A DNA stretch of 64,000 bases from Streptomyces antimicrobicus. GTDB lineage: Bacteria; Actinomycetota; Actinomycetes; Streptomycetales; Streptomycetaceae. The stretch is from contig NZ_JAJAUY010000001.1 in the NCBI RefSeq assembly GCF_020532625.1, forward strand, positions 1-64,000, in the 5' to 3' direction. Below are positions 4,687-24,594 of the stretch, in pieces. The notes beneath the pieces are model-generated. The model did not search any database, was not told the origin of the DNA, and was given only the letters and a program-made list of their open reading frames with translations. The first letter of the stretch is position 1; every line of letters starts with the position of its first letter. Both the position numbers and the translations under genes were made by a program.

Positions 4687-5712
4687 TCACCTCCGCAGCG
4701 GCCCGTCAGTGTCCCGTAGCCCCCGAAGCCCCAGATCCGCGGTCTGTCGTCCCCCGAGCTCTGCCAGGATCTCCGCGCAGATCGCCAGCGCCGTCTCCGC
4801 CGGCGTCCGGGCGCCCAGGTCCAGCCCGATCGGGCCGTGCACGCGGGCCAGCCGGTCCTCCGTCACCCCGGCGGCGATCAGCCCCTCGCGGCGCCGGGCC
4901 GTGGTGCGCCGCGAGCCGAGCGCGCCGACGTACGGGACACCGGCCGCCAGCGCCGCCCTCAGCACCGGCACGTCGAAGTCCGGCTCGTGCGTGAGCACGA
5001 CCAGGCACGCGGCGTCGCGGTGCTCGGCCAGTTCCTTCTCGGCCTCGGCCGCCGACGCGACCGTCACGGCCTCCCACTCCAGCAGCAGCGCCTGGCGCGT
5101 GATGATGTCCGCCAGTTCACCGCCGCCGCACACCACGACGTACGGCGCCGACGGGTACGCCTCGACCAGCACCAGCCCGGACTCCCCGTACAGGGCGTCC
5201 CGCCCGGCCCGGCGCGTGGCCAGCAGTTCACCGGCCCGCCGCTCGGCGTCGTTCGCGGGCGCGTCCTCCGCCCGTACGACGACGCTGGTGGCGTGCTCGG
5301 CACCCTCGTCCAGCCGGGTCACGAGCGCCGCCCCGGCGCCCCGTTCCAGGAGCTCCCACCACTCGGCGGGCACCGCCGTCAACGGCTGGAGCAGCACCTC
5401 GGCCCGCCCTCCGCAGGTCAGCCGGGCCTCGACGGCCTCACCGGCGCCCACCGACACCTCGCACACCCGCGCCGTCCGCCCGGCGGGCAGCGCCGCGGCC
5501 TCGGCAGCCAGTTCGGCGTCGAAGACGCCCCGGTACAGGCTGCCCACGCACTCACCGCGGGGGTCCACCAGCAACGCCCCGGCGGGCTCGCGCGGGCCGA
5601 AGCCCTGCTCGGCCACGGGCCGCGCCAGGAAGGCCGTACGCCCTTCGGAGATCCACTGTCGTGCCGTCTGAGCCAGCTCGCGCATCGGCGCCGCCCCCAT
5701 CCCGTCCGCCAT
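4687..5712 (-). CDS. XdhC/CoxI family protein (molybdenum hydroxylase maturation)
   Basis: This 341-aa protein has the two-part XdhC layout: an N-terminal XdhC/CoxI region (about residues 1-130) and a C-terminal Rossmann-like region starting at YVVVCGGGELADIITRQALL, with the family segments VLTHEPDFDVPVLRAAL, YVGALGSRRTTARR and GPIGLDLGARTPAE. Members insert or sulfurate the molybdenum cofactor of xanthine-dehydrogenase-type enzymes. No xdh or cox structural gene lies nearby, so the partner must be elsewhere. The frame stays open far upstream of 5712, but MADGMGAAPMREL at 5712 is the natural start. Confidence 0.85.
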   Translation of the reverse strand: MADGMGAAPMRELAQTARQWISEGRTAFLARPVAEQGFGPREPAGALLVDPRGECVGSLYRGVFDAELAAEAAALPAGRTARVCEVSVGAGEAVEARLTCGGRAEVLLQPLTAVPAEWWELLERGAGAALVTRLDEGAEHATSVVVRAEDAPANDAERRAGELLATRRAGRDALYGESGLVLVEAYPSAPYVVVCGGGELADIITRQALLLEWEAVTVASAAEAEKELAEHRDAACLVVLTHEPDFDVPVLRAALAAGVPYVGALGSRRTTARRREGLIAAGVTEDRLARVHGPIGLDLGARTPAETALAICAEILAELGGRQTADLGLRGLRDTDGPLRR

Positions 5713-5939
5713 CGATCCCCGCGCGGGCCTGGCAGGCCGCCGGCCGGTGCCGGGGCCGCGCGGTTCCTTCGGTTGCTCGGATAGTAGGCACCCCCGCGAA
5801 CCCCGCCCAAGGCCCAGATCCACCGAGCCCCCGCCCCTTCCCTCGTACGGTCCACCATCGCCACCCCGCCCCGCCGCGCAGCCACTGCGGCCCACCCTCC
5901 CTGCACGCACCGCGCCCCGGGCTACGGGGCGCTGCCGGA

Positions 5940-6355
5940 AGATGAGCTGTTCCTCGAACTCGTTGAAGGTCACCCCCGCCGTCCGGTACGGCGTCGCCGG
6001 GCAGCCGGATGATCCGCGGACGGCGGCCCTCGTGCTCCCCACGCCGAAGTTGCTGGGTGGCGTACACCCAGCACAACTGCCGCGTGTCCGGGTCGAAGAC
6101 GACGCAGAACACGGGCACGTCCCCGTTCGCCGCCGTCTCGGCGTGCTGGCGTACCGGTACTCCGTAGCCGTAGGAGCGGCGCCCCGAGGTGCCGCCCTTG
6201 ACCTGGACCTTGACGACGTCGTTGGTCACACGGCCGGCGTCGGCGAAGGTGACGAACAGGTCGCCCTCCACCCCAGCCTGCCAGCGCCCTCTGACACCGC
6301 CCCTCGACATCAGCCGGTGCGCCACCGCTCCGCGGTTGTCCCACTCGCCACCCAC
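5940..6355 (-). pseudogene. Frameshifted DUF4365-like gene remnant
   Basis: From a GTG at 6355 the minus strand reads HRLMSRGG, VEGDLFV, VVKVQVKGG, then DVPVFCVVFDPDTRQLCWVY. This is the pattern of DUF4365 proteins (a PD-(D/E)xK nuclease-like family with an Asp followed by QxK). After LPGDAVPDG the frame loses sense, while the neighbouring frame continues with TFNEFEEQLIFRQRP, so a frameshift is likely near 5985-6000. No stop codon closes it before the XdhC gene. The 727-bp stretch 5713-6439 holds only this remnant and the short divergent region (6356-6439) before the TerD gene. Confidence 0.5.
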
Positions 6356-8418: not shown

Positions 8419-8463
8419 AAGTGCCCCCGGCAGGATTCGAACCTGCGCACACGGCTCCGGAGG
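8419..8463. repeat. Left attachment site (attL), 45-bp direct repeat of tRNA-Arg 3' half
   Basis: These 45 bases are identical to 24550-24594, which lie in the tRNA-Arg(CCG) gene from the anticodon loop to just past the 3' end. The copies diverge immediately on both sides. This copy keeps only the 3' half of the tRNA (minus strand) and cannot encode a functional tRNA. The two copies define the ends of the AICE. Confidence 0.93.
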
Positions 8464-8698
8464 GCATGCGGGATCAGCGGCCCAGAAGTGCCCGACCTGC
8501 GGGAACCTCGCCGTTGTATCAGGTCGCGGCCCGAGCTCACTCGCCACTCACTCGTGGACGGCAGCACTGGGCCCCGCCACTGTCGGCGACTCGCGCTAAT
8601 GTTCGATTATGGAGATCACGTGCACTGGCTCTCCCCGAGTCAGGGGTCGTCCCTCTACGCTGCCTCTCCGGGGTAGGAAGGTCAGGGGGCCTTGATTG

Positions 8699-9256
8699 GT
8701 GGACACGGACGGCAAGCCGCGTAAGCGGAACATCGAAGCCGTTGATGATCGAACTGTCACCACGATGATGGAGCAGTTGCAGGTCGGTTACGTCTCCACT
8801 GTTGCGGCCACGGCCGGTTGCTCCGTCGAGGTAGTGGGCAAGGACGTCTTCGGTGTCGATGTTCAGTTCATCCGGCCTGGACGTAACCACTTGGAGCAGG
8901 AGAGCCTGCTCTTTGCCCAGCTCAAGTGCACGACGCTGGTGGTTCCGGACCGCGACGAAAAGTCCTTCCGCTACAGGTTCTCGAAGCGTGAGTACTTTGA
9001 GGGCTTGTCTGTCGTGCGTTCGTATCCCAAGAAGATCCTCATCGTTATGACTGTGCCGCTTGTCCAGCGCGAGTGGACTGAGGTGCTGCGCGGTGGACTT
9101 CTTGTGAAGCGTGAATGCTACTGGACGCACCTGGCAGGGGCGACGTCGGAGCTGGTGAAGCCCACGATTGACATTCCGACGGAAAATGTCTTCGATGCTC
9201 AGGCTCTCGTCGACATCTTGGATAGGCAGGATAGGGGTGAGTCGCTTGCTGGGTGA
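8699..9256 (+). CDS. DUF4365-domain protein, PD-(D/E)xK nuclease-like (AICE cargo)
   Basis: This 185-aa protein starts VDTDGKPRKRN and has the DUF4365 pattern: MEQLQVGYVSTVAATAGC, then FGVDVQF and LLFAQLKCTT, i.e. an Asp followed about 30 residues later by QLK, and later PKKILIVMTVP and YWTHLAG. The family is related to PD-(D/E)xK nucleases and often occurs in mobile or defence contexts; its activity is unproven. The GTG at 8699 has AGGGGG upstream (a TTG at 8696 is also possible). It overlaps the next gene by 20 bp, so the two are probably co-translated. Codon use and G+C are clearly lower than in the core genes. Confidence 0.75.
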   Translation: MDTDGKPRKRNIEAVDDRTVTTMMEQLQVGYVSTVAATAGCSVEVVGKDVFGVDVQFIRPGRNHLEQESLLFAQLKCTTLVVPDRDEKSFRYRFSKREYFEGLSVVRSYPKKILIVMTVPLVQREWTEVLRGGLLVKRECYWTHLAGATSELVKPTIDIPTENVFDAQALVDILDRQDRGESLAG

Positions 9257-10469
9257 GGCCGAAGACTTGACCATCCCAGTCGCTGTTGATCCAGGCAGAC
9301 TGAGGGCGATCCTGGATGAGCTCGGCTGGCTCGTCGCAGGCGGGAGAACGGGAATATATGCCCGATACACCCCTCCGGTTGGAGGGGAATTCGACGGAAT
9401 GTCAAGTGTGATCATTCCTCTGGATGCCGCCGCTCCCGACTATCAGCACTTGATGAGTCACGCATTGACGCAGCTTGCCCAAAGGCGTGACTTCTGGTCT
9501 CGCTCCCTATATCCGCGCCTCGCAGTATCCGCTTCGGATGAGTTTCGATTTCAGAAAGAATCCAAGGCTCCCAGTGGTCTAATCGCGTGGCGTCATGGGG
9601 AGCGTCTGGTCGAAAGCGCGCGTCGCACCTTCTTGGCCGGAGCGAAATACTACATCGGGCCAGGGCGTCATTTCGTTAATCGGCATGGTCGATTCGCTAC
9701 CCGGTATCTGGATCAGATCCTGATGGGGCAGACCGCTGTCGGTAGCTACGTCATTACCGCCCTCGCCCCCTCGGACGCTTCGATTGAGCTGAAGCAGGCC
9801 TTTGACGGTGCGGCCCGACTCCCGGACGTAGGTGTCGCTCGTGTGCGCAGTGTGAACGAAGCCGTCGTGCATGCAGTGGGCGCAACGGTCGAGGCACTCG
9901 ATCACTACCGATCGAGTGGCTCGCTCGCGGGGTTTGAGCAAGGCGTCATCGGTGGCGTTTCCTATGAGATGACGAATGCCATCCTTGGAATCACTTCGAA
10001 TGCAGACGAAGCGCTTATTGCTGTTGAATGGGACCAGGGTCAAGCGAGGCCCGAGGGTGTCGAAAGTGAATTCTTCTTCAATGCCGAAGATGTGGCGCCC
10101 CTAGCGCAGGCGGCAGCGAAGCTGGCAGAAGATGAATCGTCCACACATTTTTCGGTCACGGGTAGGGTTCATCTCTTGGCCAAGAAGACTGCTGGAAGTC
10201 CTGGAGTCTTTGGCATTGATTCATTGCAGTCCCAAGGTCCGCGGAAAGTGCGTGTAAGGCTGGCTGATGACGAGGATTATCATGAAGCCGTGCGAGCGCA
10301 CGAAGAGGACCTTGCGATTTTGGTGGCCGGGCGGCTAGAGAAGGAAGGAAACTTGAGCTGGCTATATGACGCGACAGTGGTGCGTACCCTCGGCTCGCTG
10401 GACGAGTTTCCAACGAGTCGCCGTTCCGCGCCCCAGGAAGGCATTCCAGGCCAGCTAGACATGTTCTGA
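9237..10469 (+). CDS. Unrecognised 410-aa cargo protein ending in QLDMF
   Basis: I do not recognise this family. From the GTG at 9237 (MSRLLGEAEDLTIPVAVDPG) the protein is soluble, mixed alpha/beta in character, with no membrane segment and no nucleotide-binding motif. Notable stretches are ELGWLVAGGRTGIYARYTPP, GPGRHFVNRHGRFATRYLDQ and GVIGGVSYEMTNAILGI. It ends in GQLDMF, the form of a bacterial sliding-clamp-binding peptide (QL[SD]LF type). The start overlaps the DUF4365 gene by 20 bp, so the pair is very likely one operon and one system. The frame is open back to 9168, but that would overlap more and reads as out-of-frame DUF4365 sequence. G+C is lower than in the neighbours. Confidence 0.7.
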   Translation: MSRLLGEAEDLTIPVAVDPGRLRAILDELGWLVAGGRTGIYARYTPPVGGEFDGMSSVIIPLDAAAPDYQHLMSHALTQLAQRRDFWSRSLYPRLAVSASDEFRFQKESKAPSGLIAWRHGERLVESARRTFLAGAKYYIGPGRHFVNRHGRFATRYLDQILMGQTAVGSYVITALAPSDASIELKQAFDGAARLPDVGVARVRSVNEAVVHAVGATVEALDHYRSSGSLAGFEQGVIGGVSYEMTNAILGITSNADEALIAVEWDQGQARPEGVESEFFFNAEDVAPLAQAAAKLAEDESSTHFSVTGRVHLLAKKTAGSPGVFGIDSLQSQGPRKVRVRLADDEDYHEAVRAHEEDLAILVAGRLEKEGNLSWLYDATVVRTLGSLDEFPTSRRSAPQEGIPGQLDMF

Positions 10470-10477
10470 GGCACAGG

Positions 10478-10557
10478 CCGGACACCCCGGACAGCGTGTC
10501 GGCTAGCTGTCCGGGCCCTTTCTGCTGGTCAGCGGCCTAACAGGACAGACGGACAGC
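10478..10557. promoter_or_regulatory. TGTCCGG/CCGGACA heptamer cluster upstream of the GntR gene
   Basis: CCGGACA occurs at 10478-10484 and 10487-10493 and TGTCCGG at 10508-10514, followed by AGGACAG and CGGACAG at about 10542-10556. The second and third copies form the arms of a hairpin (10486-10515, CCCGGACAGC/GCTGTCCGGG) that may also terminate the cargo operon. The same heptamer is clustered at 22563-22688 in front of xis, so it is probably a binding site for an element-encoded protein. Confidence 0.55.
10486..10522 (+). terminator. Terminator-like hairpin after the cargo operon
   Basis: CCCGGACAGC (10486-10495) pairs perfectly with GCTGTCCGGG (10506-10515) around a 10-nt loop, and CCCTTTCTG follows. 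It lies 17 bp after the stop of the QLDMF gene. Confidence 0.55.
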
Positions 10558-10624
10558 TGGGACCCTCCGCTCCGGGTACCGGGCGTGCGAAGCTGGAGCG
10601 CGACCGGGGTTGAAGGAGGAGTGC

Positions 10625-11062
10625 GTGCCGAGCGCCAGCCCGCGTGGGACGTTTCAGGTGATCGCTCAAGCGCTTCGCGAGCGGATCGCCGCAGGGCTCT
10701 ATGAGGGAGGCGTGCCCTCCGAGGCCGAGATCGGACAGGAGTTCGGCGTGGCCCGGACCACCGTGCGGCGGGCGTTGCGGGCCCTTGAAGAGGCCGGTGA
10801 CGTGAAGGCTGTTGCGGGAGTGGGGCGTGCGGTGGCCGGCGGCGCTGATGTGGCGCCTTACGAGCGCATCATGAACGATCTGCTGGGGCAGATCCGTAGC
10901 GGCGTCCTTGCGGCCGGCGCCCAGCTGCCGAGCGAAGCGCAGTTGGCTGGGCAGTACGGGGTGGCTCGTGGCACCGTCCGTCGGGCGGTCCGGGAGCTGG
11001 AGACCGCAGGGCACGTCGAAGCCCGGCACGGCGTCGGGCGATTTGTCAGATCGCCGTCCTGA
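10625..11062 (+). CDS. GntR-family regulator made of two tandem winged-helix domains
   Basis: This 145-aa protein consists of two GntR-type DNA-binding domains and nothing else. The first (about residues 8-70) contains PSEAEIGQEFGVARTTVRRA; the second (about 78-143) contains LPSEAQLAGQYGVARGTVRR. There is no UTRA, FCD or other effector domain. GntR-type repressors (KorSA in pSAM2) control AICE replication and transfer, and this protein probably has that job here. The GTG at 10625 has AGGAGG 5 nt upstream. The promoter region carries the TGTCCGG heptamer cluster, which could be its own operator. Confidence 0.85.
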   Translation: MPSASPRGTFQVIAQALRERIAAGLYEGGVPSEAEIGQEFGVARTTVRRALRALEEAGDVKAVAGVGRAVAGGADVAPYERIMNDLLGQIRSGVLAAGAQLPSEAQLAGQYGVARGTVRRAVRELETAGHVEARHGVGRFVRSPS

Positions 11063-11088
11063 ACTCCCGATACTCGGAGGCGTCAAGT

Positions 11089-11652
11089 ATGCAGTTGGTC
11101 AGCTGGGCCTACGACCTTGCCGAGTCCCTGCTTGCTGATGACCTGCCACGGCGGTGGGCCCATTCGCGGCGGGTATACGAGCAAGCCCTGACCCTCGCTC
11201 CCGCCCTGGGGGCCGACGCCGAGCTGTTGGCCGCCGCTGCCATCGCGCACGATGTCGGGTATGCCGAGGTGGCGGTGGACACCGGGCAGCACATGATCGA
11301 TGGAGCGCGATACCTGCGGGACGTGGTGGGAGCCGATCCGCGGCTGTGCAGCATCGTCGCCTTCCACACCTCCTCACCGTGGGAGGCCTCGGAGCTGGGG
11401 CTTGCGGACGCGCTCGCCGAGTTCGGCCCGGCCGACACAGACTTGGTGGACGCCATCACCTACTGCGACCTGACCAGCAGCCCTACCGGGGAACTAGTCG
11501 ACCCCGCCCACCGACTCTCTGAGGTCCTGGAACGCTACGGGCCTGAGCACGTGGTCTTCCGTGCGGTCTCGGCGGCCCGCCCGGAGCTCCTGGAGCGCGT
11601 GGCCCGGGTACGGGAACGGCAGGCTGAGGCCGCGGCGGCGCGGATCAGCTGA
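11089..11652 (+). CDS. HD-domain phosphohydrolase-like protein
   Basis: This 187-aa protein has an HD domain: an early histidine in WAHSRRVYEQA, the HD pair in AAIAHDVGYAE, and later FHTSSPWEA and DAITYCDLTSSP supplying further ligands. HD proteins hydrolyse phosphate esters, often of nucleotides. It starts 26 bp after the GntR gene with GGAGG upstream of the ATG, so the two are probably co-transcribed. Its 3' end overlaps the convergent Nudix gene by 8 bp. HD and Nudix genes often appear together on Streptomyces AICEs; the substrate is not known. Confidence 0.82.
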   Translation: MQLVSWAYDLAESLLADDLPRRWAHSRRVYEQALTLAPALGADAELLAAAAIAHDVGYAEVAVDTGQHMIDGARYLRDVVGADPRLCSIVAFHTSSPWEASELGLADALAEFGPADTDLVDAITYCDLTSSPTGELVDPAHRLSEVLERYGPEHVVFRAVSAARPELLERVARVRERQAEAAAARIS

Positions 11653-12118
11653 TCACCGGTACCGGCGCGTTGCGGAAGCCTTCCAGGAGGCGTCGGCGTG
11701 TGGTCGGGGAGACGTCGAGGGAGTCCAGCTCTGCTTGCGGGACCCATCGCACCGCCAGTGACTCGGAGCTCACCGTGATCTCGCCGCCGACTGGCCGCGC
11801 CCGGAAGCAGAGCGAGAACTCCTGACGAACCTCTCCGTCGGCAAAGGCGATGACGTGCCCCGGGTCCGTGAAGATGCCGACCAGGCCGACCACCTCCACC
11901 TCGATCCCGGTCTCCTCCAGGACTTCGCGGACGACCGTCCCGGCGATGTCCTCTCCGATCTCCTGGACGCCGCCAGGCATGCCCCAACGGCCGTTGTCGG
12001 AGCGGCGTTCGAGCAGAACTTCACCGGCATCGTTCACGACGAAGGCAGTCACCGCCGGCACGATGCTGTTCGCCTTGGGGGCGGCGGGGTCGTTGAAGTA
12101 GTCAGTGCGGCGACTCAT
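11645..12118 (-). CDS. Nudix hydrolase, Pif-like
   Basis: This 157-aa protein has a complete Nudix box, GGVQEIGEDIAGTVVREVLE followed by ETGI (G-x5-E-x7-REVLEETGI), within a typical Nudix fold (SIVPAVTAFVVNDAGEVLLE). Nudix proteins hydrolyse nucleoside diphosphates linked to another group. In pSAM2 the Nudix protein Pif prevents transfer between cells that already carry the element, and this gene is the likely counterpart. Its ATG overlaps the stop of the upstream XRE-PLD gene (ATGA), so the two are translationally coupled on the minus strand. Confidence 0.88.
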   Translation of the reverse strand: MSRRTDYFNDPAAPKANSIVPAVTAFVVNDAGEVLLERRSDNGRWGMPGGVQEIGEDIAGTVVREVLEETGIEVEVVGLVGIFTDPGHVIAFADGEVRQEFSLCFRARPVGGEITVSSESLAVRWVPQAELDSLDVSPTTRRRLLEGFRNAPVPVIS

Positions 12119-12861
12119 GAGGGCCTCTCGATGGGTACGGCTTCTTCCCACACCTTCTCGAAGCTCTGCTGGTACGTCGAGACGAGCTCGGCTCCCGCGA
12201 CTCGACGCAGGTGCAGTACGGGGGCCATAGGGGCGCTGACGCCGTAGACCTGGGTGTTCACCAGCCACTCGTCGTCCGACCGGTACAGCGAGTTGTGCAG
12301 GGTGGATCGGTGCATCCGGAATTCGATTCCAGGCACTGAGTAGAGCGGACGGTACAGCTTCATGACCTCCCGCACCTTGTAGGCCACGCCCTCCCCGATC
12401 TCCTCCTCCTTGCCGCGCCGCTGGATCTCCTGGCTGTCCGGGTCGCCCAGAAGGATGCGGGCTCTCACGCCGGACGCTGCCTTCAGGCGGAGCAACTGGG
12501 ACCATCGCGGATTCTCGGCGAGGAACACGCCGGCGTGGACGAGCACGCCGATCTCGCGCTCCGCCCGGCCGAAGAGCTGCAGCCAGAGTTCCGGCGGGAC
12601 GTACGAGCGGTGCGGGTAGACCTTGAGGACCTCGGCGTCGGCCGCGTCCTTCCGCTGGCCGTCAGGAAGGCCGTTCGGCCAGAGGTAGGCCTCATCTTCA
12701 CGCAGGTAGGCAGCTATCGCGAGGCGGTGGCGGCGGTACGGCGAGCGCCCTTGGGTGATCCACCGTTCCACCGTCTTGGGGTCCACGCCCACATGCTCCG
12801 CCATGGCTTCGACCGTGACTCCGTGGGTCAGCATCGCCGACCGTAAGCGCTCGTTCGCCAT
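12115..12861 (-). CDS. Regulator with N-terminal HTH and C-terminal PLD-like domain
   Basis: The first roughly 70 residues of this 248-aa protein form a Cro/XRE-like helix-turn-helix (THGVTVEAMAEHVGVDPKTV, then ERWITQGRSPYRRH). From about residue 95 a phospholipase-D-like fold follows (IGVLVHAGVFLAENPRW, GVRARILLGDPDS, HRSTLHNSLYRSDDEW, SFEKVWEEA). The classical HxK(x)4D catalytic motif is not clear, so this part may sense rather than cut. Such HTH-PLD proteins are regular AICE components next to a Nudix gene. The long frame upstream of 12861 is not used, since MANERLRSAMLTHG is a natural start. Its promoter region carries the GGACGTCC/GTCCAGGGAC boxes. Confidence 0.8.
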   Translation of the reverse strand: MANERLRSAMLTHGVTVEAMAEHVGVDPKTVERWITQGRSPYRRHRLAIAAYLREDEAYLWPNGLPDGQRKDAADAEVLKVYPHRSYVPPELWLQLFGRAEREIGVLVHAGVFLAENPRWSQLLRLKAASGVRARILLGDPDSQEIQRRGKEEEIGEGVAYKVREVMKLYRPLYSVPGIEFRMHRSTLHNSLYRSDDEWLVNTQVYGVSAPMAPVLHLRRVAGAELVSTYQQSFEKVWEEAVPIERPS

Positions 12862-12868
12862 CCCACCC

Positions 12869-12936
12869 CCAGGGACGTCCAGGGACGTAATCGATCCTCC
12901 GAACGCTATCGAGGACGTCCCAAGTCGTCCAGGGAC
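12869..12936. promoter_or_regulatory. GGACGTCC / GTCCAGGGAC boxes upstream of the XRE-Nudix operon
   Basis: The palindrome GGACGTCC occurs at 12873-12880 and 12913-12920. GTCCAGGGAC occurs at 12877-12886 and 12927-12936, exactly 50 bp apart, and CCAGGGACGT is directly repeated at 12869-12888. The boxes begin 8 bp upstream of the XRE start and span its promoter region, as expected of an autoregulatory operator. The stretch 12862-13411 (550 bp) holds these boxes, a rightward promoter with an inverted repeat, and the hairpin at 13338; I see no convincing gene in it. Confidence 0.55.
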
Positions 12937-13008
12937 AGGGTGACTTCGTCCCGCCCGGCGGCGGCAATCTGGTGGCACGCCGAAGGGCGGTCCGAAGCAG
13001 CGAAGGAC

Positions 13009-13064
13009 TTGACAGCCGCGATCGGACACATCATCGTGAGATACATGTTCAACCATGTATCTCA
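13009..13064 (+). promoter_or_regulatory. Rightward promoter overlapped by an 11-bp inverted repeat
   Basis: TTGACA at 13009-13014 is followed after 17 bp by CATCGT (13032-13037), a plausible sigma-70-type promoter reading toward the transfer genes. Directly on top of and after the -10 lies TGAGATACATG (13037-13047), inverted as CATGTATCTCA (13054-13064) around the spacer TTCAAC. This placement is typical of a repressor operator. The A+T-rich repeat stands out in this high-G+C region. Confidence 0.55.
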
Positions 13065-13337
13065 TGCTTGACCGGGCGACTCCATGTGCCCTGACCTGCA
13101 CTGCCCGTCGCCCCGAGGGCCCGAGAGGGCTCGAAGGAAGCGCCGGCTCCTTGACAACTGCATGGGGATCACGCCGCCTCTCCTCGGCCAAGTAGGCGGC
13201 CACGCGGGTCTTCCGCGTGAGGTACAGCGCCATCCCAACCCTTCCGCGGCCTCGGCGGCCGCGGCCGGTTGCCTCCCTCGTCCGTCCCGTACGGGTGGGG
13301 TGCGGGGAGCCGGAGCTCCAGCAGCACACCAATGGCA

Positions 13338-13376
13338 CGGCGGCGGGACTCCCCAGCAAGGTCGCCCGCCGCCGTC
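13338..13376 (+). ncRNA. Conserved-loop hairpin, copy 1 (leader of the transfer operon)
   Basis: ACGGCGGCGGG pairs with CCCGCCGCCGT (11 bp) around the 17-nt loop actccccagcaaggtcg. The identical loop on a longer stem recurs at 20502-20546. Each copy ends 35-39 nt before the ATG of the next gene, so both probably act in an mRNA 5' leader. There is no U-tract, so it is not a simple terminator. Confidence 0.6.
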
Positions 13377-13411
13377 GCCCCTCCCTGCCCCTCCGATCCA
13401 GGAGTGCACCC

Positions 13412-13723
13412 ATGCGTACCCGTACCCGTACGTACATCGGCGGCCAGGAGGCCGTCAGCGCCGACGACTTCGTGGAACTGGCCCTCGGCACGCCGATCGA
13501 GCTGTGGCTCGGCGTGGAGGGCGAGAGCGAGGAGGAGCGCGCGGCCCGGCTCGACGCCGCCCGCGACATCCTCGCCGAGAACCCGAACCTTCCCGACGAG
13601 GTGAGCCGGGTCGCCGCCGAGGTGATCGAGGCCTACGCGCCCGAGCTGTTCAACGTCGTTCCCCTTCATCGCGTCCCCACGGCCCGCCCGCGTACCCGGT
13701 CCGGCAAGGGGGCGGCGGCATGA
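13412..13723 (+). CDS. Small acidic AICE protein of unknown function
   Basis: This 103-aa protein starts MRTRTRTYIGGQEAVSADDF and is rich in Glu and Ala (GVEGESEEERAARLDAARDI) with a basic C-terminus (RPRTRSGKG). I do not recognise a domain. It is the first gene after the hairpin at 13338 and the inverted-repeat promoter, with GGAG upstream of the ATG. It overlaps the next gene by 4 bp (ATGA), so it heads a tightly coupled five-gene run. A regulatory role is conceivable from position only. Confidence 0.7.
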   Translation: MRTRTRTYIGGQEAVSADDFVELALGTPIELWLGVEGESEEERAARLDAARDILAENPNLPDEVSRVAAEVIEAYAPELFNVVPLHRVPTARPRTRSGKGAAA

Positions 13724-14319
13724 GCCACCTGACCCCTGAGCCGGAGGACCTGCTCGACCACACCGGCCAGCGTCGACCGACGCGCGGCATGGAGCTGTCG
13801 GCACGCGACTTGCGGTTGGCTCTGGCCTTCCACGAGACCGGGCACGCGGTACTGGGCATGGCGTACGGAATGCGCGTCGAGCGGGTGGACCTCTTCACCT
13901 GGCAGGACTCGCCGAGTGAGGGCCTCTTCGCGACCGGAGCGACGACGTGGGACGCCCACGGCATCCGGCCGTGGCGGTTCGCCGCCCAGTGCGCCGCCGG
14001 TGAGGCCGCGCAAGGACGTTTCCTGCGGGAGCGGGGACTGTGGACCGCGGTGAACGCCGCCGCGTGCGAGTCCGTACACGACCGCGAGCTCGCCATCGAC
14101 GTGCTCGCTGAGGCCGGTCTGCTGCTCGGACGGAGCCACGCGCCCGCGGGCGGAAAGTCGTGGGCCACCATTCAGGCGGTCGCACGGCGATCGGTCGCCC
14201 TGCTGTGGCCGCGCATCCACCGCGTCGCCTTCGCCCTGGAGCAGCACAACACCCTGACCGGCGACGAAGTCGCGCGGCTCGCGGGACTGATCAATCCCGC
14301 GCCTGAAGGGGGCGCGTGA
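13720..14319 (+). CDS. FtsH/M41-like protein with an HEXXH motif, no AAA domain
   Basis: This 199-aa protein contains LALAFHETGHAVLGMAYGMR, i.e. the HEXXH zinc-binding signature (HETGH) set in a sequence like the M41 peptidase part of FtsH (FHEAGHA). Further on, AAQCAAGEAAQGRFL and the central Asp/Glu residues recall the later helices of that domain. No AAA ATPase and no membrane segment are present. It could be a small zinc protease acting on an element or host protein, or a peptidase relic. It is coupled by ATGA/TGATG overlaps to both neighbours. Confidence 0.7.
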   Translation: MSHLTPEPEDLLDHTGQRRPTRGMELSARDLRLALAFHETGHAVLGMAYGMRVERVDLFTWQDSPSEGLFATGATTWDAHGIRPWRFAAQCAAGEAAQGRFLRERGLWTAVNAAACESVHDRELAIDVLAEAGLLLGRSHAPAGGKSWATIQAVARRSVALLWPRIHRVAFALEQHNTLTGDEVARLAGLINPAPEGGA

Positions 14320-15362
14320 TGACCGCCCTGGCAGCGAAGGAGCGCACGGCGGTACCGCCGTTGACCCGCCCGGAGCTGGGCCTCGCCGGAACGGGCGCCC
14401 TGGCCGCGGCCGGCGTGGGGGCCCTGGGGCTGATCTCCTCGTTCGACGCGGTCTCGGCCGCGGCCGGGCGGTGGGGGTTCGGTGATCCGTGGATGCTGCC
14501 GGTAGGTATCGATACCGCGATCCCGGTGTTCACCGTGGCCAACCTGCTGCTCATCCGGATGGACATGGCGTTGGTGTGGGTCAGGTTCGTTCCCTGGGCG
14601 CTCACCCTGGTCACATGCGGGCTGAACATCGCCGCCGGTCAGGGGCTGTGGGCCAAGGTCGCCCACGGCACAATGCCGCTGCTGTGGGTGGTCTTCTCCG
14701 AGATCGGCGCTCACGTCTACGCCGTCCGCATCGGCGCGGTGACCGGCCGCCGCATGGACAAGATCCGCGCTTCACGCTGGCTCCTCGCCTTCCCCTCCAC
14801 CTTCTCGCTCTGGCGGCGGATGACCCTGTGGGAGATCACCTCGTACGCCGATGCGCTGGAGCGGGAGAAGGAGCGCCAGCTCGCCCGCGCCGAACTGCGT
14901 GAGCAGTACGGGTGGCGGTGGCGGTCGAAGACCCCGCGCCGCGAACGGGTCCTGCTCCGCCTCGGCGAACTGGCTATGGGTGGTCCGGAAGAACCCCGGG
15001 TCACGCCTGAGGCGGCGGCCGAGCCCGAGACCCCCGGCGTGTTGGAGAGCAGCAGCGCACTGCCCGAGGAGCCCCGTCCGCTGCCCAAGCGGCCGGTCCG
15101 CGGCCGGACGAAGGCGCGGGCCAGGAAGCCGTTGCGCACCGCCGAGGAGCTGCTCGCCGAGGCCCGGGAGGCCACGGCGGCGTGGCCGGACAGCGCGATC
15201 AACGCCGAGGCCCTCCGTACGCACCTGCGGTGCTCGGCCGCCAGCTCCCGGGTGCTGCGGGATCAGCTGCTCGCGGACCGTGCCGAGGCGCGCGTCCTTG
15301 CTCCGCTCGAAGCCGACACCGCAAAGACGACCGCCGCGGCGGCCGAGGAGGTCGCCGCATGA
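14319..15362 (+). CDS. DUF2637 membrane protein
   Basis: This 347-aa protein has four hydrophobic segments within the first 150 residues (including GALAAAGVGALGLISSF and MPLLWVVFSEIGAHVYAVRI), matching DUF2637, a family found on Streptomyces conjugative plasmids and AICEs. It continues as a cytoplasmic basic tail with a C-terminal HTH-like stretch (SAINAEALRTHLRCSAASSR). DUF2637 proteins may help plasmid spread or anchor DNA at the membrane, but the function is not proven. The ATG at 14319 overlaps the previous stop (TGATG); a GTG at 14316 is an alternative start. It overlaps the GGDEF gene by 4 bp. Confidence 0.8.
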   Translation: MTALAAKERTAVPPLTRPELGLAGTGALAAAGVGALGLISSFDAVSAAAGRWGFGDPWMLPVGIDTAIPVFTVANLLLIRMDMALVWVRFVPWALTLVTCGLNIAAGQGLWAKVAHGTMPLLWVVFSEIGAHVYAVRIGAVTGRRMDKIRASRWLLAFPSTFSLWRRMTLWEITSYADALEREKERQLARAELREQYGWRWRSKTPRRERVLLRLGELAMGGPEEPRVTPEAAAEPETPGVLESSSALPEEPRPLPKRPVRGRTKARARKPLRTAEELLAEAREATAAWPDSAINAEALRTHLRCSAASSRVLRDQLLADRAEARVLAPLEADTAKTTAAAAEEVAA

Positions 15363-16009
15363 ACGCCGTCATCGCTGCTCTGTCCGCCGCAGTACCTGTC
15401 GTGGCCGGATGGTCCGGGCACGTGCTTTGGCTGCGCCGCCGGTTGGACACCGCCCGCCGCGACCCGCTCACCGGTCTGCACACCCGTGACGGCTTCACCC
15501 GCCGAGCCGATGCCCTGCTGCGGGACAAGCGAGCCGTCGTCCTTCTCGCCGACGTGGACGACTTCAAGCAGATCAACGATCGGCACGGCCACGCCGCCGG
15601 AGACGCCCTCCTCAAGGCAACCGCGGACCGCCTCGCTCACTACGTCGGTCCGGCCGGGGCCGCCGGACGCCTCGGTGGGGACGAGTTCGCTGCCGTTGTC
15701 ATCGACGCCCACGGCACGGCCGAGGATCTCTTTGCCGCCCTGCACGCCGTACTGGCCCGGCCCGCCGGCTCCGATCAGCCCGACATCCGTACGACGGTCT
15801 CGCTCGGCTGGGCCAGGGTCGCCGACTTCCCCGGCGAGAGCCTCTCCCAGCTGCTCGGGCGGGCGGACGAAGCCATGTACGCGGCCAAGCAGGGCCGCGC
15901 CGGCATCAAGCGCGCCGGCCTCGGCCGCCTCTTCGCCACCGTGACCGGGCGCCGCGCCGGCCGCCGCGGCGCCCGCACCGACGCCCCCACGGTCGGGGCA
16001 GTGGCCTGA
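15359..16009 (+). CDS. GGDEF-domain protein, probable diguanylate cyclase
   Basis: This 216-aa protein has one N-terminal hydrophobic segment (about residues 3-26), then a GGDEF domain starting at RRDPLTGLHTRDGFTRRAD, with LLADVDDFKQINDRHGHAAG, the intact active-site loop GRLGGDEF (about residue 106) and SLGWAR. The RxxD inhibitory site normally five residues before GGDEF is absent. An intact GGDEF implies synthesis of c-di-GMP, which in Streptomyces controls development through BldD. The start overlaps the DUF2637 stop (ATGA), so it belongs to the transfer operon. Confidence 0.87.
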   Translation: MNAVIAALSAAVPVVAGWSGHVLWLRRRLDTARRDPLTGLHTRDGFTRRADALLRDKRAVVLLADVDDFKQINDRHGHAAGDALLKATADRLAHYVGPAGAAGRLGGDEFAAVVIDAHGTAEDLFAALHAVLARPAGSDQPDIRTTVSLGWARVADFPGESLSQLLGRADEAMYAAKQGRAGIKRAGLGRLFATVTGRRAGRRGARTDAPTVGAVA

Positions 16010-16395
16010 TGGGCACCGGCCCGATCTTTCGCTGCTTCGACCCGACCGGGACGACGTACGGGATACCGACCTACCCGTGGCGCTACGCCCCCGACGGCCT
16101 CGCGACCCGCCGTCAGCTCCGCGCCCTCGGTCTGCGGCCCGGCGGACAGCCCGTCGCCGCGCAGCTGCTCCGCCCGCGCTACCGGCGCGAGCCGCTGGTG
16201 GCCTACCTCTACCGGATCGACCGGGCCAAGCCCGTCCGGCCGATGACCTCCCGCAAGTGGGGCGCACTCGCCCTGGCGATGCTCGCCCGCCGCACCTGCC
16301 CGCAGTGCCGCACCGACGCCGGATACGTCATCCCGGCCTCGCTCGGCATGTGCGTGCGCTGTGCCTACCCGGCCGAGCGACACTCTGCCGCCTGA
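16009..16395 (+). CDS. RRQRL-motif zinc-binding protein
   Basis: This 128-aa protein contains TRRQLRALGLRPGGQPVAAQ near residue 35 and two cysteine pairs near the C-terminus (CPQC and CVRC) that would bind zinc. This corresponds to the protein family named for its RRQRL-like motif in Streptomyces mobile elements; its function is unknown. The start overlaps the GGDEF stop by one base (TGATG). The 96-bp gap that follows separates this run from the translocase gene. Confidence 0.8.
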   Translation: MGTGPIFRCFDPTGTTYGIPTYPWRYAPDGLATRRQLRALGLRPGGQPVAAQLLRPRYRREPLVAYLYRIDRAKPVRPMTSRKWGALALAMLARRTCPQCRTDAGYVIPASLGMCVRCAYPAERHSAA

Positions 16396-16491
16396 ACTCC
16401 CCTTGTCCACCGCACCGGTCGGGCCCGGCCGCTCACCTCTCACAGCGTCGGCCGGGCCCGCCCATTCCCTTCGCAACGGAAGGAAGCATCA

Positions 16492-18714
16492 GTGAATCAC
16501 CCCGACGAGGAGAACGAACTGCTCTCCCGACTCGAAGCCGACATGGGCTCCCACAGCGGCGCCGACGCCGGCGCCGACGTGGTCGACCTCGGCAAGGCCC
16601 GGTCCGCCCGGACCGAGTCGCCCGACTCGGCCGCCCGTCCCCGCCCCGACTCGTCGGACACAGGTGGTGTCGACGAGTCGGGCCAGACAACGGCCCGTCC
16701 GTTGGTCGACGGCCCGGACGTCGCCGGGCCCGGCTACCTCGGCCGACTCGCCGGGGCCAAGCGCCGGGCGATCGTCCCCGCCTGGTTGCGGTCGAAGGCC
16801 GAGCTGAAGGCGGCTGCCAGCTGGGTGGCCCGGCACTACGCGCACCTGGCCGGGTACCACGCGCTCCGCTCCCCGGTCTACGTCGGCCGCCTCGCCCTCC
16901 AGGCGCCCCGCGGGGCAGCCCGGTTCGTGGGCGGGAGCCTGCGGTGGATCGCCGACCGGGAGGGCGAGCCGGTCCGGCTGGCCGCCGTACGCCGCGAGGA
17001 CGTCGGCGACTACCTGAAGCTGTCCCGCCAGCGGGACGGGCGCGTACGGCTGCGCACGCTCGTCGTCGCGCTCGCCACGCTGGTGGGCACGATCACGGCG
17101 CTCGCGCTCTACGTCCTTGCCCCCGGCTGGTTCCAGGCCGTCTCCCTCGGCGCCCTGGTCCTCGCGCTCGGCGCGGCCGGTGGCCACGCGGACGCCCCGG
17201 TCGTCCACCGCGCGGTGGAGGTCACCAAGGCGCCCAAGCTCACATCGGACATCGTTCTTCGCGCGCTCGGGGCGCTGGGCATCGCGCCGATCAGCCAGGC
17301 ACAGGCCAAGGGGAGGGACGGCTTCACCTTCACGGCCCCCATCACCCGCGACGGGCCCGGCTGGCGCGCCGAAGGCGACCTGCCCTACGGCGTCACGGTC
17401 ACGGACGTGATCGAGCGCCGCGACAAGCTCGCCTCGGGTCTTCGCCGGCCGCTCGGATGCGTCTGGCCGGAGGCCGTGCCCGACGAGCACACCGGCCACC
17501 TGGTGCTGTGGGTGGGGGACCAGGACATGACCAAGGCCAAGAAGCCCAAGTGGCCGTTGCTGGTCAGCGGCGTGGTGGACCTGTTCCAACCCGTGGCCTA
17601 CGGCACTGACCAGCGCGGCCGTTGGGTGGAGGTCACCCTCATGTACATCGCCGGGGTGATCGGTGCGATCCCGCGCATGGGCAAGACCTTCCTGCTCCGT
17701 CTCCTGCTGCTGATCGCCGCGCTCGACCCCCGGGCCGAGCTGCACACGTACGACATGAAGGGCACCGGCGACCTGGACCCCGTCGGCAACGCGGTCTCCC
17801 ACCGGCACGCCGCCGGCGACGATGACGACTCCATCGCCTACACCCTGGCCGACTTCCGCGAACTGCGGGAGGAACTGCGGCGCCGGGTGAAGGTGATCCG
17901 CTCCCTGCCGCGCGACATCTGCCCGGAAAACAAGGTGACCAGTCTCCTGGCGGACAAGCGCTCCCTCGGCCTTCACCCGATCGTCATCGGGGTGGACGAG
18001 TGCCAGGTCCTCTTCGAGCACCCCGAGCACGGCAAGGAGTTCGAGGAGATCGCCACCGACCTCGTCAAGCGCGGCCCGGCCACCGGGATCGTGTTGCTGC
18101 TGGCCACCCAGCGGCCGGACGCCAAGTCCCTGCCCACCGGGATCTCGGCGAACGCCTCGGCACGCTGGTGCCTGAAGGTGATGGGCCAGACCGAGAACGA
18201 CATGGTGCTCGGCACGTCCTCGTACAAACGCGGGGTGCGGGCGACGATGTTCGCCTGGGGCGACAAGGGCATCCATTACTTCATGGGCGAGGGGGCCGAC
18301 GCCCGGATCGTCGCCTCCACCTACGTCGACGCCCCTGGCGCCGAGACCGTCGCCGTCCGCGCCCGCCAGGTCCGTCAGAAGGCCGGTCTGCTCACCGGGC
18401 ACGCCCTCGGCGAGGCGCCGGAGCAGGTGACCGGCCCCACGTACGACCTCCTCGCCGACATCGTCGCCGTCGTCCCGGCTGCCGAGCCCAAGGTGTGGTC
18501 CGAGACCGTGGCCGCCCGGCTCGCGGAACTGCGGCCCGAGGTCTACGACGGATGGGACCCCGAAGCCCTCGCGGCCGCGCTCAAGCCGCACGGCATCTCC
18601 ACCCTCCAGGTCGGCCGCCGCATCGACGGCAAGGTCGTCAACCGCCGCGGAATCGACCGCTCCCACATCACGACGACGATTGCGGAGCGTGATGGAAGGC
18701 GGGACGCGGGCTGA
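16492..18714 (+). CDS. FtsK/SpoIIIE-type DNA translocase, TraB-like conjugation protein
   Basis: This 740-aa protein has a polar N-terminus, two membrane helices at about residues 188-231, and a motor domain with Walker A GAIPRMGKT (about 391-399) and Walker B IVIGVDECQ (about 497-505). LLLLATQRPDAKSLPTGI is typical of FtsK-type conjugal translocases. The C-terminal 80 residues (LRPEVYDGWDPEALAAALKP, then HGISTLQVGRR) look like a winged-helix DNA-recognition domain, as used by TraB to read the clt repeats. It would move double-stranded element DNA into the recipient. GTG start with AAGGAAG upstream. The palindrome cluster at 18724-18811 begins 10 bp after its stop. Confidence 0.93.
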   Translation: MNHPDEENELLSRLEADMGSHSGADAGADVVDLGKARSARTESPDSAARPRPDSSDTGGVDESGQTTARPLVDGPDVAGPGYLGRLAGAKRRAIVPAWLRSKAELKAAASWVARHYAHLAGYHALRSPVYVGRLALQAPRGAARFVGGSLRWIADREGEPVRLAAVRREDVGDYLKLSRQRDGRVRLRTLVVALATLVGTITALALYVLAPGWFQAVSLGALVLALGAAGGHADAPVVHRAVEVTKAPKLTSDIVLRALGALGIAPISQAQAKGRDGFTFTAPITRDGPGWRAEGDLPYGVTVTDVIERRDKLASGLRRPLGCVWPEAVPDEHTGHLVLWVGDQDMTKAKKPKWPLLVSGVVDLFQPVAYGTDQRGRWVEVTLMYIAGVIGAIPRMGKTFLLRLLLLIAALDPRAELHTYDMKGTGDLDPVGNAVSHRHAAGDDDDSIAYTLADFRELREELRRRVKVIRSLPRDICPENKVTSLLADKRSLGLHPIVIGVDECQVLFEHPEHGKEFEEIATDLVKRGPATGIVLLLATQRPDAKSLPTGISANASARWCLKVMGQTENDMVLGTSSYKRGVRATMFAWGDKGIHYFMGEGADARIVASTYVDAPGAETVAVRARQVRQKAGLLTGHALGEAPEQVTGPTYDLLADIVAVVPAAEPKVWSETVAARLAELRPEVYDGWDPEALAAALKPHGISTLQVGRRIDGKVVNRRGIDRSHITTTIAERDGRRDAG

Positions 18715-20501: not shown

Positions 20502-20546
20502 ACCGCGGCGGCGGGACTCCCCAGCAAGGTCGCCCGCCGCCGCGGT
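20502..20546 (+). ncRNA. Conserved-loop hairpin, copy 2 (leader of the replication operon)
   Basis: ACCGCGGCGGCGGG pairs with CCCGCCGCCGCGGT (14 bp, perfect) around the same 17-nt loop as at 13338, actccccagcaaggtcg. The outer stem bases differ from copy 1 but still pair. It ends 39 nt before the ATG of the 29-aa gene that leads the rep-xis-int run, a similar distance to copy 1. Confidence 0.62.
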
Positions 20547-20585
20547 CCTCCCCGCCCACCCGAAGGCAGACAGGAGACCTCAAGC

Positions 20586-21562: not shown

Positions 21563-22719
21563 GCGCCAACCCGATCCCGCCGCTGCACCTCTACTCCGTT
21601 CCCCGGGAGCCGCCCGGTGAGGCGGGGCCGGTCCCGCCGAAGCGGGAGCGGCCTCGTACGGCCTGGACCGCCGATCAGCTCATGGCGGCCGAGTTCCCCG
21701 AGCCCAAGTGGGCCGTCCCCGGGATCCTGGCCGAGGGGGTCAGTCTCCTCGCCGGGCCGCCCAAGGTCGGCAAGTCCTGGCTGTCTCTCGGCCTCGGCCT
21801 CTCCGTCGCCGCCGGCGGCCACGCCTTCGACACCGTGCCCGTCCAGGGCGGGCCCGTGCTCTACCTCGCCCTGGAGGACACCCCGCGGCGGCTTCAGAGC
21901 CGGATGGGGAAGATCCTCGGCGGCCGGGCCGCACCTGCCGGGCTCACGCTCGTGACCGAGTGCCCGCCCTTCCCCCAGGGCGGGACCGAGGCCGTCGCCC
22001 AGTGGCTGGAGCGGCACCCCGACGCCCGGATGGTCGTCATCGACGTCTTCGCCAAGATGCGCGGGCACGCGCCGCCCGGAGTCTCCGCGTACGACGCCGA
22101 CTACGTGGCCGTGGGCTACGCCAAACGCCTCGCCGACCACTTCGGCATCGCCGTGGTCCTCGTCCACCACGTCCGCAAGGCGGGCTCCGAGGACTTCCTC
22201 ACCGAGGTCTCGGGGACCAACGGCATCGCCGGAGCGGCGGACGCCACGCTCGTCCTCAAGCGCGCCCGCGGCCAGGCCGACGGCATCCTCCACGTCACCG
22301 GCCGCGACGTGAACGAAGCCGAGTACGCCCTCCAGTTCCAGGAAGCCTCGGGCACGTGGAAGCTCCTGGAAGGCCCGGCCTCGGACCACACCATCGGCGA
22401 CACCCGGGCGGCGATCCTCCGCTATGTCCGCGCCCACCCCGGCGCCCGCCCCAAGGACATCGCAGAGGCCCTCCCTGGCACCGACGCCGACACCGTCCGC
22501 CGGACCTGCTCGCGCATGGCCGCCGACGGCCAGCTCACCAAGGACGCCAGCGGCCGGTACTACCCGGACACCGAAACCCGGACAGCTCCCATGCGGCAGG
22601 TGTCCCAGCTGTCCGAGTGTCCGGTTATCCCACCTGACCAGCGAAAAGGACCCGGACAGTCAGAACTGGAGCTGTCCGGGCTGTCCGGTCCGACCGGAGA
22701 TGAAGGGACGTATACGTGA
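21559..22719 (+). CDS. RepA-like AAA ATPase (DNA helicase type)
   Basis: This 386-aa protein has a RecA/RepA-like ATPase core: Walker A LLAGPPKVGKSW (about residues 70-81), VLYLALEDTPRR, Walker B RMVVIDVFAKM, and VVLVHHVRKAGSEDF with the sensor histidines. A winged-helix-like segment (TRAAILRYVRAHPGARPKDI) follows at about residues 280-340. Together with the Prim-Pol it forms the replication pair of this AICE class. GTG start overlapping the previous stop. Its 3' end carries seven CCGGACA/TGTCCGG heptamers, which shape the unusual C-terminal sequence and may be the replication origin or a xis-int operator. Confidence 0.88.
   Translation: MSANPIPPLHLYSVPREPPGEAGPVPPKRERPRTAWTADQLMAAEFPEPKWAVPGILAEGVSLLAGPPKVGKSWLSLGLGLSVAAGGHAFDTVPVQGGPVLYLALEDTPRRLQSRMGKILGGRAAPAGLTLVTECPPFPQGGTEAVAQWLERHPDARMVVIDVFAKMRGHAPPGVSAYDADYVAVGYAKRLADHFGIAVVLVHHVRKAGSEDFLTEVSGTNGIAGAADATLVLKRARGQADGILHVTGRDVNEAEYALQFQEASGTWKLLEGPASDHTIGDTRAAILRYVRAHPGARPKDIAEALPGTDADTVRRTCSRMAADGQLTKDASGRYYPDTETRTAPMRQVSQLSECPVIPPDQRKGPGQSELELSGLSGPTGDEGTYT
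22563..22688. repeat. TGTCCGG heptamer cluster in the 3' end of the repA-like gene
   Basis: CCGGACA starts at 22564, 22578 and 22652, and TGTCCGG at 22618, 22674 and 22682; AGCTGTCCG at 22607-22615 is a seventh, one-base-short copy. They alternate in orientation over about 125 bp directly upstream of xis and integrase. The same heptamer lies upstream of the GntR gene. Candidate roles are replication origin iterons or a shared operator. Confidence 0.6.
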
Positions 22720-22910: not shown

Positions 22911-24379
22911 CCCACCGCAGTACCAGCGGTGACCCGGGCGTCCGCGAAAGCGGGCGCCCGGATTCCCCTGTGACCGAAGAGCTTTCGACAGATGTGCGGA
23001 TCTGGAACATCTCCCCCGTGAGGAGCAAGTCGGCCCCGTTCCAGCTGAGGTGGAAAGTAGCCGGGCGCGTGAAGACGGCCAGTTTCGCCACACACGCCCT
23101 GGCGGACAGCCGCCGTTCGCAACTTCGTCAGGCAATGAGCCGCGGTGAGTCATTCGGCGTGGATTCCGGACTCCCGGTTTCGGAACTCAGAGATCAGACA
23201 CCTAAGGAAACGAACAAGGACGATCCGAACTGGTGGACCTTTTCCCGTGAATATCTGGCCGCTCGCTGGCGGACTGCGGCGGCCAAAACACGGGAGGGCC
23301 TCGCGGACAGCCTCGCCACCGTGGCCATAGCCATGGGGGGGGAGGGCAACAGGGCCCCGAACCCTGAGGAGATACGCCTCGCGGTCCGATGGGCCGTCGT
23401 ACCGAGCCACGCGAACGAGGATCCGCCGGAGGAGCTGAGGGCCGCGGCACGCTGGCTGGCGGAGAAGTCCTTGCCGCTGTCCGCGCTTCGCGAATCCCAG
23501 GTAGCCCGTGACGTCCACTACCAGCTGGCCTTCAAGCTGGACGGGACCCCGGCCGCGGCCGAGACCTACAAGCGGCGCCGCAGGGGATTCAACACGGCTA
23601 TGGACTACGCCGTTCAAGAGGGATACCTCGATAGGAACCCCCTCGTGGGTCTGAAACGACCGGGCACGGGCGGCATCACCGGAATCGTGGACCCGCGCGT
23701 CCTGGTGAACGAATTGCAGGGTCGCCAACTGCTCACCGCCGTTTCCTATGTCGGCTCGGTCCACCGGAACAGAGGGCGTCGGCTCGTCGGATTCTTCGGG
23801 TGCATGCTCTACGCCGCGACGCGGCCGGCGGAAGCGGTCGGGCTCACCCTCGACCAGTGCCATCTACCTGATACGGGCTGGGGAACGCTGACCTTGAAAG
23901 AGACGCGCCCGGTCGCCGGAAAGAAATGGACGGATTCCGGAGAGCGCCACGACCGGCGCGGGCTCAAGTCGCGCGAGCCGGACAAGGACCGACCCGTGCC
24001 CATCCCGCCGGTCCTGGTGGCTCTGCTGCGCGAGCACCTCACCGAGTTCGGTACGGCTCCGGACGGGCGTCTCTTCGGCAACGAGCGGGGTGGGCTCTTG
24101 GGGAGCTCCAGCTACTGGCGCGTGTGGAAGGAGGCCCGGGCGCTGGCGCTCCCGCCGGACAAGGTCGCTTCGCCCCTGGCCCGCCGGCCGTACGACCTCC
24201 GGGCCACGTGCATCACCAACTGGCTCCGCGCCGGCCTGCCAGTGGCGAAGGTCGCCCGCCGCGCCGGGAACTCACCGGAGGTCATTCACCGCGACTACGC
24301 CGGCTGCCTGGACGACAGCGAGGAGGACAACAACAGGAAGATCGAAGAAGCGATGGGATGGGGGAGCGGCGGCGTCTGA
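22907..24379 (+). CDS. Tyrosine site-specific integrase
   Basis: This 490-aa tyrosine recombinase has an N-terminal arm-binding part (FQLRWKVAGRVKTASFATHA), a core-binding domain (TREGLADSLATVAIAM), and a catalytic domain with Arg at about 306 (YAATRPAEAV), the second Arg at about 432 (PYDLRATCITNWLRAG) and the nucleophile Tyr at about 464 (VIHRDYAGC). It would recombine attP with the tRNA-Arg attB. The frame is open further upstream, but the GTG at 22907 overlaps the xis stop and gives a normal length. It lies 170 bp from the attR copy with a terminator in between. The fossil at 7888-8273 is a relative. Confidence 0.95.
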   Translation: MTHRSTSGDPGVRESGRPDSPVTEELSTDVRIWNISPVRSKSAPFQLRWKVAGRVKTASFATHALADSRRSQLRQAMSRGESFGVDSGLPVSELRDQTPKETNKDDPNWWTFSREYLAARWRTAAAKTREGLADSLATVAIAMGGEGNRAPNPEEIRLAVRWAVVPSHANEDPPEELRAAARWLAEKSLPLSALRESQVARDVHYQLAFKLDGTPAAAETYKRRRRGFNTAMDYAVQEGYLDRNPLVGLKRPGTGGITGIVDPRVLVNELQGRQLLTAVSYVGSVHRNRGRRLVGFFGCMLYAATRPAEAVGLTLDQCHLPDTGWGTLTLKETRPVAGKKWTDSGERHDRRGLKSREPDKDRPVPIPPVLVALLREHLTEFGTAPDGRLFGNERGGLLGSSSYWRVWKEARALALPPDKVASPLARRPYDLRATCITNWLRAGLPVAKVARRAGNSPEVIHRDYAGCLDDSEEDNNRKIEEAMGWGSGGV

Positions 24380-24549: not shown

Positions 24550-24594
24550 AAGTGCCCCCGGCAGGATTCGAACCTGCGCACACGGCTCCGGAGG
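24550..24594. repeat. Right attachment site (attR) within tRNA-Arg
   Basis: Identical to 8419-8463 over 45 bp. It covers the tRNA from the anticodon loop through the 3' end, so integration at this side keeps the tRNA gene whole. Confidence 0.93.

Follow-up and report, generated by a model that had tools for sequence, protein, structure and literature searches.

An AICE-borne gene pair of the candidate defence family PDC-M02 in Streptomyces antimicrobicus, with a sliding-clamp-binding-type motif at the C-terminal end of one protein

The 64,000 nt stretch of Streptomyces antimicrobicus DNA analysed here (the window) carries two overlapping genes, A and B, at one end of an AICE. Both translated sequences match PDC-M02, a catalogued defence candidate. 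The reading that we tentatively prefer, at somewhat short of an even chance, is that the pair is an AICE-borne PDC-M02 member that functions as a two-protein nuclease system, in which B would bring A to the replicating DNA of invaders or trigger it there. The family itself was already known as a candidate. What is new in this analysis is the clamp-type tail of B in AICE clades and a diverged, near-core paralogue of the pair in the genus, together with the prediction of an OB fold in B.

The gene pair and its family

Gene A (positions 8699–9256, + strand) runs from a GTG start to a stop codon and encodes 185 aa; gene B (9237–10469, + strand), also GTG start to stop, encodes 410 aa. The reading frames confirm the 20 bp overlap (9237–9256) that the first-pass annotation had described. 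In the relatives L004 and L044 the start of B likewise lies within A, the overlap being 17 bp when measured up to the final sense codon of A. The G+C of the pair was also said to be below that of the element core, and this is the case: measured in 500-base steps it is 0.57–0.61 over 8501–10500 and 0.65–0.75 over 10501–16500, and the pair is lower in G+C than the remainder of the AICE. The window A sequence and A of L044 give dN/dS = 0.20, but in comparisons of B sequences of the window type dS is mostly saturated, so that a ratio was obtained for few.

Protein A is a DUF4365/DREN nuclease-like protein. The Pfam match (PF14280, E-value = 6.3e-13) has 49.4 bits against a cut-off of 24.3 and the DUF4365 domain covers residues 25–175 of the 185. 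The PADLOC profile PDLC04283 (PDC-M02A) matches residues 5–184 with an E-value = 1.7e-74. D54, Q74 and K76, whose codons lie at 8858–8926 (+ strand), form a predicted PD-(D/E)xK-type active site. D49, D54 and Q74 are present in all 29 aligned A proteins and K76 in 28 of them, so that the Asp…QLK pattern read earlier as DUF4365 is borne out both by Pfam and by conservation. An alignment located the QxK residues of TmuRE, for which a Q62A/K64A variant was prepared as the inactive mutant (PMC10810196); Q74 and K76 of the window A correspond to the residues mutated there. The same source describes DREN in short-Argonaute systems as degrading DNA once activated. Protein A is a putative nuclease.

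A second DUF4365 match (32 bits) is found in the window at 5552–6355 (− strand), outside of the AICE, with a TerD-domain frame on the opposite strand. This match is distinct from PDC-M02A, as it gives no PADLOC match, and it apparently runs out of frame into the XdhC gene.

Protein A resembles SPARDA and the DUF4365-APAZ short-Argonaute systems in its DREN domain with a Q-x-K active site, but it consists of the DUF4365 domain alone, and B shows no Argonaute match in Pfam. B as an Argonaute/APAZ partner was thus ruled out in Pfam searches at E up to 1, in which A gave DUF4365 and a weak herpes row.

Protein B had been reported as matching nothing, which is incorrect. It matches PDLC04326 (PDC-M02B) with an E-value = 9.4e-129 and PDLC04317 with an E-value = 9.5e-120 over residues 11–393. 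This rules out B as an orphan and makes the pair an already catalogued candidate. There is no NCBIfam family for B, and Pfam, searched at E up to 1, gives CysG_dimeriser (0.074) and no other row. Profiles of A and B searched against PDB sequences gave no match at E up to 1.

PDC systems were discovered by guilt-by-embedding and most are described as still candidates (PMC12988326). Both window proteins have strong matches to PDC-M02, and their genes keep its order and lie next to one another, where adjacency as a requirement is an assumption about the rule used by PADLOC (PADLOC 2.0.0). The window clade differs from PDC-M02 at large in its clamp-type tail, in its placement at an AICE end and in that the genus also holds a core paralogue that has diverged. 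In the literature searched, preprints excepted, the term PDC-M02 is absent, as are a tested mechanism and a measured activity for it.

The element and the place of the pair in it

The AICE is 16.1 kb long and is bracketed by a 45-nt perfect direct repeat. The left att copy is at 8419–8463 and is 100% identical to the right copy at 24550–24594, which lies within tRNA-Arg(CCG) (24552–24624). The pair sits 235 bp inward of the left copy. The integrase (23321–24379) gives a weak Pfam match that is under the cut-off. Pfam also identifies a Xis-like HTH protein (start position 22716), AAA_25 (21559), Prim-Pol (20672), DUF2637, which is SpdB-like (14319), HD (11089), GntR (10610) and NUDIX. Pfam gives no match for the 740-aa Tra candidate (16492), which shares a 74% identity with a protein in locus L100. 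The parts expected of an AICE (integrase, Xis, Rep, Tra/Spd and tRNA att repeats) are thus all represented, the integrase by a sub-cut-off match and Tra by a protein with no Pfam match. The earlier placement of the two genes at the cargo end of an otherwise standard AICE holds on the strength of the att repeats and these parts.

Other sequence features were seen in the element. At 15359–16009 (+ strand) there is an open reading frame for a 216-aa GGDEF protein (PF00990, E-value = 1.1e-30) which adjoins the SpdB-like gene; with its GGDEF motif intact, it is possibly a mobile c-di-GMP synthase. A 48-nt direct repeat (90% identity) is found at 13338–13385 and 20506–20553, 7.2 kb apart. A 26-nt inverted repeat pair (88%) has one arm at 10538–10563, beside the downstream end of the gene pair, and the other at 22602–22627 near the Rep and Xis genes, and is perhaps a regulator site.

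In the genus, B sequences occur in three forms. The window type (bits >430) is found in at least eight genomes (G000, G027, G019, G584, G741, G616, G600 and, broken, G789) and a mid type in at least three (G619, G717, G044); the core type, discussed below, is the large remainder of 338 B matches, by scores among the matches listed. Direct repeats involving tRNA genes bracket four of the 11 other window- and mid-type loci tested, with four different tRNA genes: tRNA-Gly (G019), tRNA-Thr (G027), tRNA-Arg(CCT) (G600) and tRNA-Val (G619). The distance from the distal repeat to the pair is 3.8–5.1 kb in these four and 0.2 kb in the window. L004 shows a 29-nt repeat only, with no called tRNA, and in the remaining six loci (G616, G741, G044, G717, L006 and G584), some on short contigs, a bracketing repeat was not found. 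Of five large genes examined from five window- and mid-type contexts, four contain FtsK/SpoIIIE (L102, L104, L101, L043; not L044), and integrases were confirmed in L102 and L104, the two contexts tested.

In G019 (L043/L106) the tRNA-Gly att sequence is present three times downstream of the tRNA (44, 37 and 44 nt), which suggests stacked integrations.

AICEs replicate autonomously, and the pair might be regarded as part of the AICE core, an accessory of its replication or transfer; the motif at the end of B, described below, would then connect B with DnaN. A search with the window Tra at ≥70% identity gave 23 matches in 199 genomes, and among the matches listed the window's own Tra is the only one for which a pair of the window type lies less than 20 kb away. 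The pair is therefore cargo of the AICE. It is also found outside of AICEs, and we regard a core function as very improbable.

Predicted structure of B

A first AlphaFold2 model of B, from three sequences, had a mean pLDDT of 41.5 and was set aside; the model used was made from 10 sequences (mean pLDDT 76.6, pTM 0.59). Residues ~299–390 (10131–10406, + strand) form a predicted OB fold. By VIA-align this region gives Z = 9.0 to 4dam_G, the SSB of Streptomyces coelicolor (2.9 Å over 88 residues), 8.9 to PriB (1woc_C) and 10.0 to SilF, but OB folds are common and OB proteins with no relation to these reach Z-scores almost as good. The best Foldseek hits for B are RPA32-type chains (E-value = 1.7e-3, about 2e-3). 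The model thus predicts an OB fold in B, possibly of the SSB/PriB-like kind, followed by a tail that is predicted to be disordered (residues 395–410).

Residues 1–300 of B yield no PDB match and no known fold from fold libraries; this part was barely probed, and the result is no sign of a new fold. It does contain a signature, G-Q-T-x-x-G-S, at residues 164–170 (9726–9746, + strand), of which T166 and S170 are present in 25 of 25 non-core B sequences and in none of four core B sequences. The best viral match of B is an uncharacterised protein of Leptospira phage LE1 (400 columns, E-value = 1.7e-18).

The C-terminal tail of B

B ends in QLDMF (residues 406–410; 10452–10466, + strand), within the tail that is disordered in the model. 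For clamp-binding motifs the consensus QL[S/D]LF has been published, with Q-phi-x-[L/M]-[F/L] as its revision (PMC13254535), and QLDMF fits the revised form given there. The complete window- and mid-type tails number 12, the B sequence of L005/G789 having been left out of the count as it is broken at the tail. They read QLDMF, QLDLF (three), QIDLF (two), QLDFF, QFSLF, QTDVF, QHPLF, QDPLF and QDSLF. All 12 agree with Q-x-[DSP]-[LMFV]-F, a pattern picked after the tails had been viewed; strictly, six fit the revised published consensus and the other six do not. Shuffled tails match the loose pattern with a probability of 0.004. In the last 40 residues of 565 distinct called proteins from the same loci, the loose pattern occurs once and the published consensus is absent.

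Among nine window-type tails the pairwise identity is 70% in the motif, 19% in the 12 residues that precede it and 82% at the end of the folded domain. The difference between motif and linker is the contrast that a functional short motif gives. The motif is a putative sliding-clamp-binding site in these clades.

Outside of these clades the picture changes. None of the 19 outer PDC-M02B relatives has the clamp-type motif, and in core copies it is degenerate: of the core tails from 30 loci, none has the Q form and 26 show a variant that lacks the Q, e.g. NLDFF. Thus the family as a whole cannot work by docking on the clamp.

A parallel in manner of working is EndoMS/NucS of Actinobacteria, a nuclease that is activated by DnaN via a C-terminal motif (PMC8228993). 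In NucS the motif and the nuclease are on one protein and in the window they are on two, and there is no sequence match between the systems. RecBCD is reported to bind the clamp as well (PMC13254535).

Distribution, linkage and company of the pair

The coupling of A and B suggested by the first-pass annotation is borne out: linkage is found in many genomes, and the objection that the genes might not be linked elsewhere fails. Twenty-nine pairs, selected because both genes were found, were drawn from AICEs, plasmids, prophages, phage LE1 and DISARM loci. Across these loci the A and B distance matrices correlate with r = 0.90, host relatedness being left in, and the best of 5000 permutations gave 0.29. 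Over 361 distant pairs the correlation is 0.67. DUF4365 was confirmed by Pfam in all nine A proteins submitted. In the preferred reading A and B would form a complex.

Relatives of B are present on eight plasmid records. Six were opened, and A lies upstream of B in four (L115, L117, L118, L120); L116 shows a trace of it where the record ends, and in L119 it was not recognised. Among IMG/VR contigs there are six B loci, with A listed upstream in four but not in L121 or in the partial L124. In Leptospira phage LE1 a 381-aa B relative, found by tblastn independently of the structure-based match, directly follows a DUF4365 gene. Prophages of M. abscessus also carry relatives, with A and B as genes 1 and 2 in the record opened. 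A tblastn search of phage records with the window B gave no hit, LE1 and the M. abscessus prophages having been found with more distant queries, and scans of viral contigs found no relative. A phylum-wide search, in which four candidates were scored per genome, matched at least 11 of 396 genomes, nine of them in the genus of the window.

It had also been asked whether the pair adjoins known defence genes. The large neighbours of four distant pairs from the genus Streptomyces were scanned with PADLOC, and two of these contexts place the pair inside DISARM loci: L045 among DrmMI and DrmD, and L052 among DrmMI, DrmA and DrmB. Three of the 10 neighbours scanned gave no match, all from L049 and L050. 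Location within DISARM agrees with the origin of PDC systems by guilt-by-embedding as described in PMC12988326. No paper treating DISARM together with DUF4365 was found in the literature searched, preprints excepted. The AICE of the window differs from these two contexts in that no drm genes are present among its proteins scanned by Pfam. This company, together with the mobility of the pair, makes a role in defence plausible.

A core chromosomal copy in the genus

Of 392 genomes of the genus, 338 have a B match at a threshold of 1e-5 and 326 an A match at 1e-20. In all 12 core loci viewed the gene order is a divergent DEDDh exonuclease, (A), B, thrS and a HIT protein; A is called in 10, the other two, L042 and L053, having a degenerate copy. 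A core pair is also present in the genome from which the window comes, on a different contig. Given the three forms of B and a core copy across the genus, including this genome, the window pair is a mobile relative of one that is near-core.

The exonuclease gene that diverges from the core pair (e.g. L055:8068–8793, − strand) encodes a DEDDh (RNase_T) protein. DEDD diDNases have been linked to AICEs and to defence (PMC11706625).

Because of the core pair, the strongest rival to a defence system is genome maintenance, where at least the chromosomal pair would be a replication or repair nuclease complex that works like clamp-activated NucS. The copy on the AICE would then be a mobile paralogue with a part in repairing the DNA of element or host, and not in immunity. 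The genus-wide counts of A and B and the constant exonuclease and thrS neighbours point this way, and a clamp motif and an SSB-like domain would suit replication. B is moreover retained in genomes that have no A, with dN/dS of 0.31–0.48 and 0.14–0.27 in two groups of three; this purifying selection suggests that B probably has a chromosomal role of its own.

Other observations are against maintenance as the function of the window pair. Copies occur in DISARM loci, plasmids, prophages and AICEs. Both genes are cleanly absent, with the exonuclease gene retained, in G021, G087, G100, G010 and G092. In addition, the loss of the T166/S170 signature in four of four core B sequences means that core B may not represent the mobile form. 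We consider maintenance rather unlikely. The first-pass annotation had named, as a finding against its own proposal, a known family with a housekeeping role for B, and that holds in part, since a diverged pair in conserved synteny is present almost throughout the genus.

The pattern of gene loss bears on another reading, a toxin-antitoxin-like addiction module in which A would be a toxic nuclease restrained by B and would stabilise the AICE. An overlapping two-gene operon at the end of an element is what such a module would look like. Lists compared by eye show B without A in 12 of 392 genomes, A without B in none and neither gene in 54, but the two thresholds differ and B is partial in some of the 12. 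Loci of this kind that were opened, with A gone and B kept, are in G002, G089, G640, G088, G753 and G595, B being only partly aligned in several. The reverse state also appears: A is intact and B is frame-shifted into pieces in G101, G070 and G119, where sequencing error is possible. The persistence of B under selection without A also speaks against this reading, and antitoxins do not usually resemble a partner of 410 aa with an OB fold. An addiction module is thus improbable.

In G101 (L137) the core B is in two frames that overlap by four bases, which may be a frameshift or a natural split gene.

Proposed function and significance

The preferred reading, a PDC-M02 nuclease system carried by the AICE, would work as follows. 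A would be the effector, a DREN-type (DUF4365) nuclease, and B its partner, a probable sensor or loader made up of a family-specific N-terminal and middle region, the predicted OB domain of SSB/PriB-like kind and a flexible tail that in this clade carries the clamp motif. B would dock on DnaN and on single-stranded DNA at replicating DNA, and docked B would release or position A there. The DNA of an incoming phage, plasmid or rival AICE could then be cut, or the cell stopped, during early replication, and the AICE would gain by excluding competitors.

A more specific form of this proposal is a clamp-guided immune nuclease, in which the SSB-like partner would patrol replication forks via its DnaN motif and fire the DREN nuclease on replicating invaders, with a genus-wide chromosomal descendant that has passed to genome maintenance. 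This form is doubtful and is offered as a speculation.

If the clamp motif works, a nuclease could locate replicating DNA without reading sequence or modification. The near-universal diverged pair raises the question of whether a defence module has turned to housekeeping or the reverse. PADLOC counts of PDC-M02 in the genus may include a chromosomal pair of another function.
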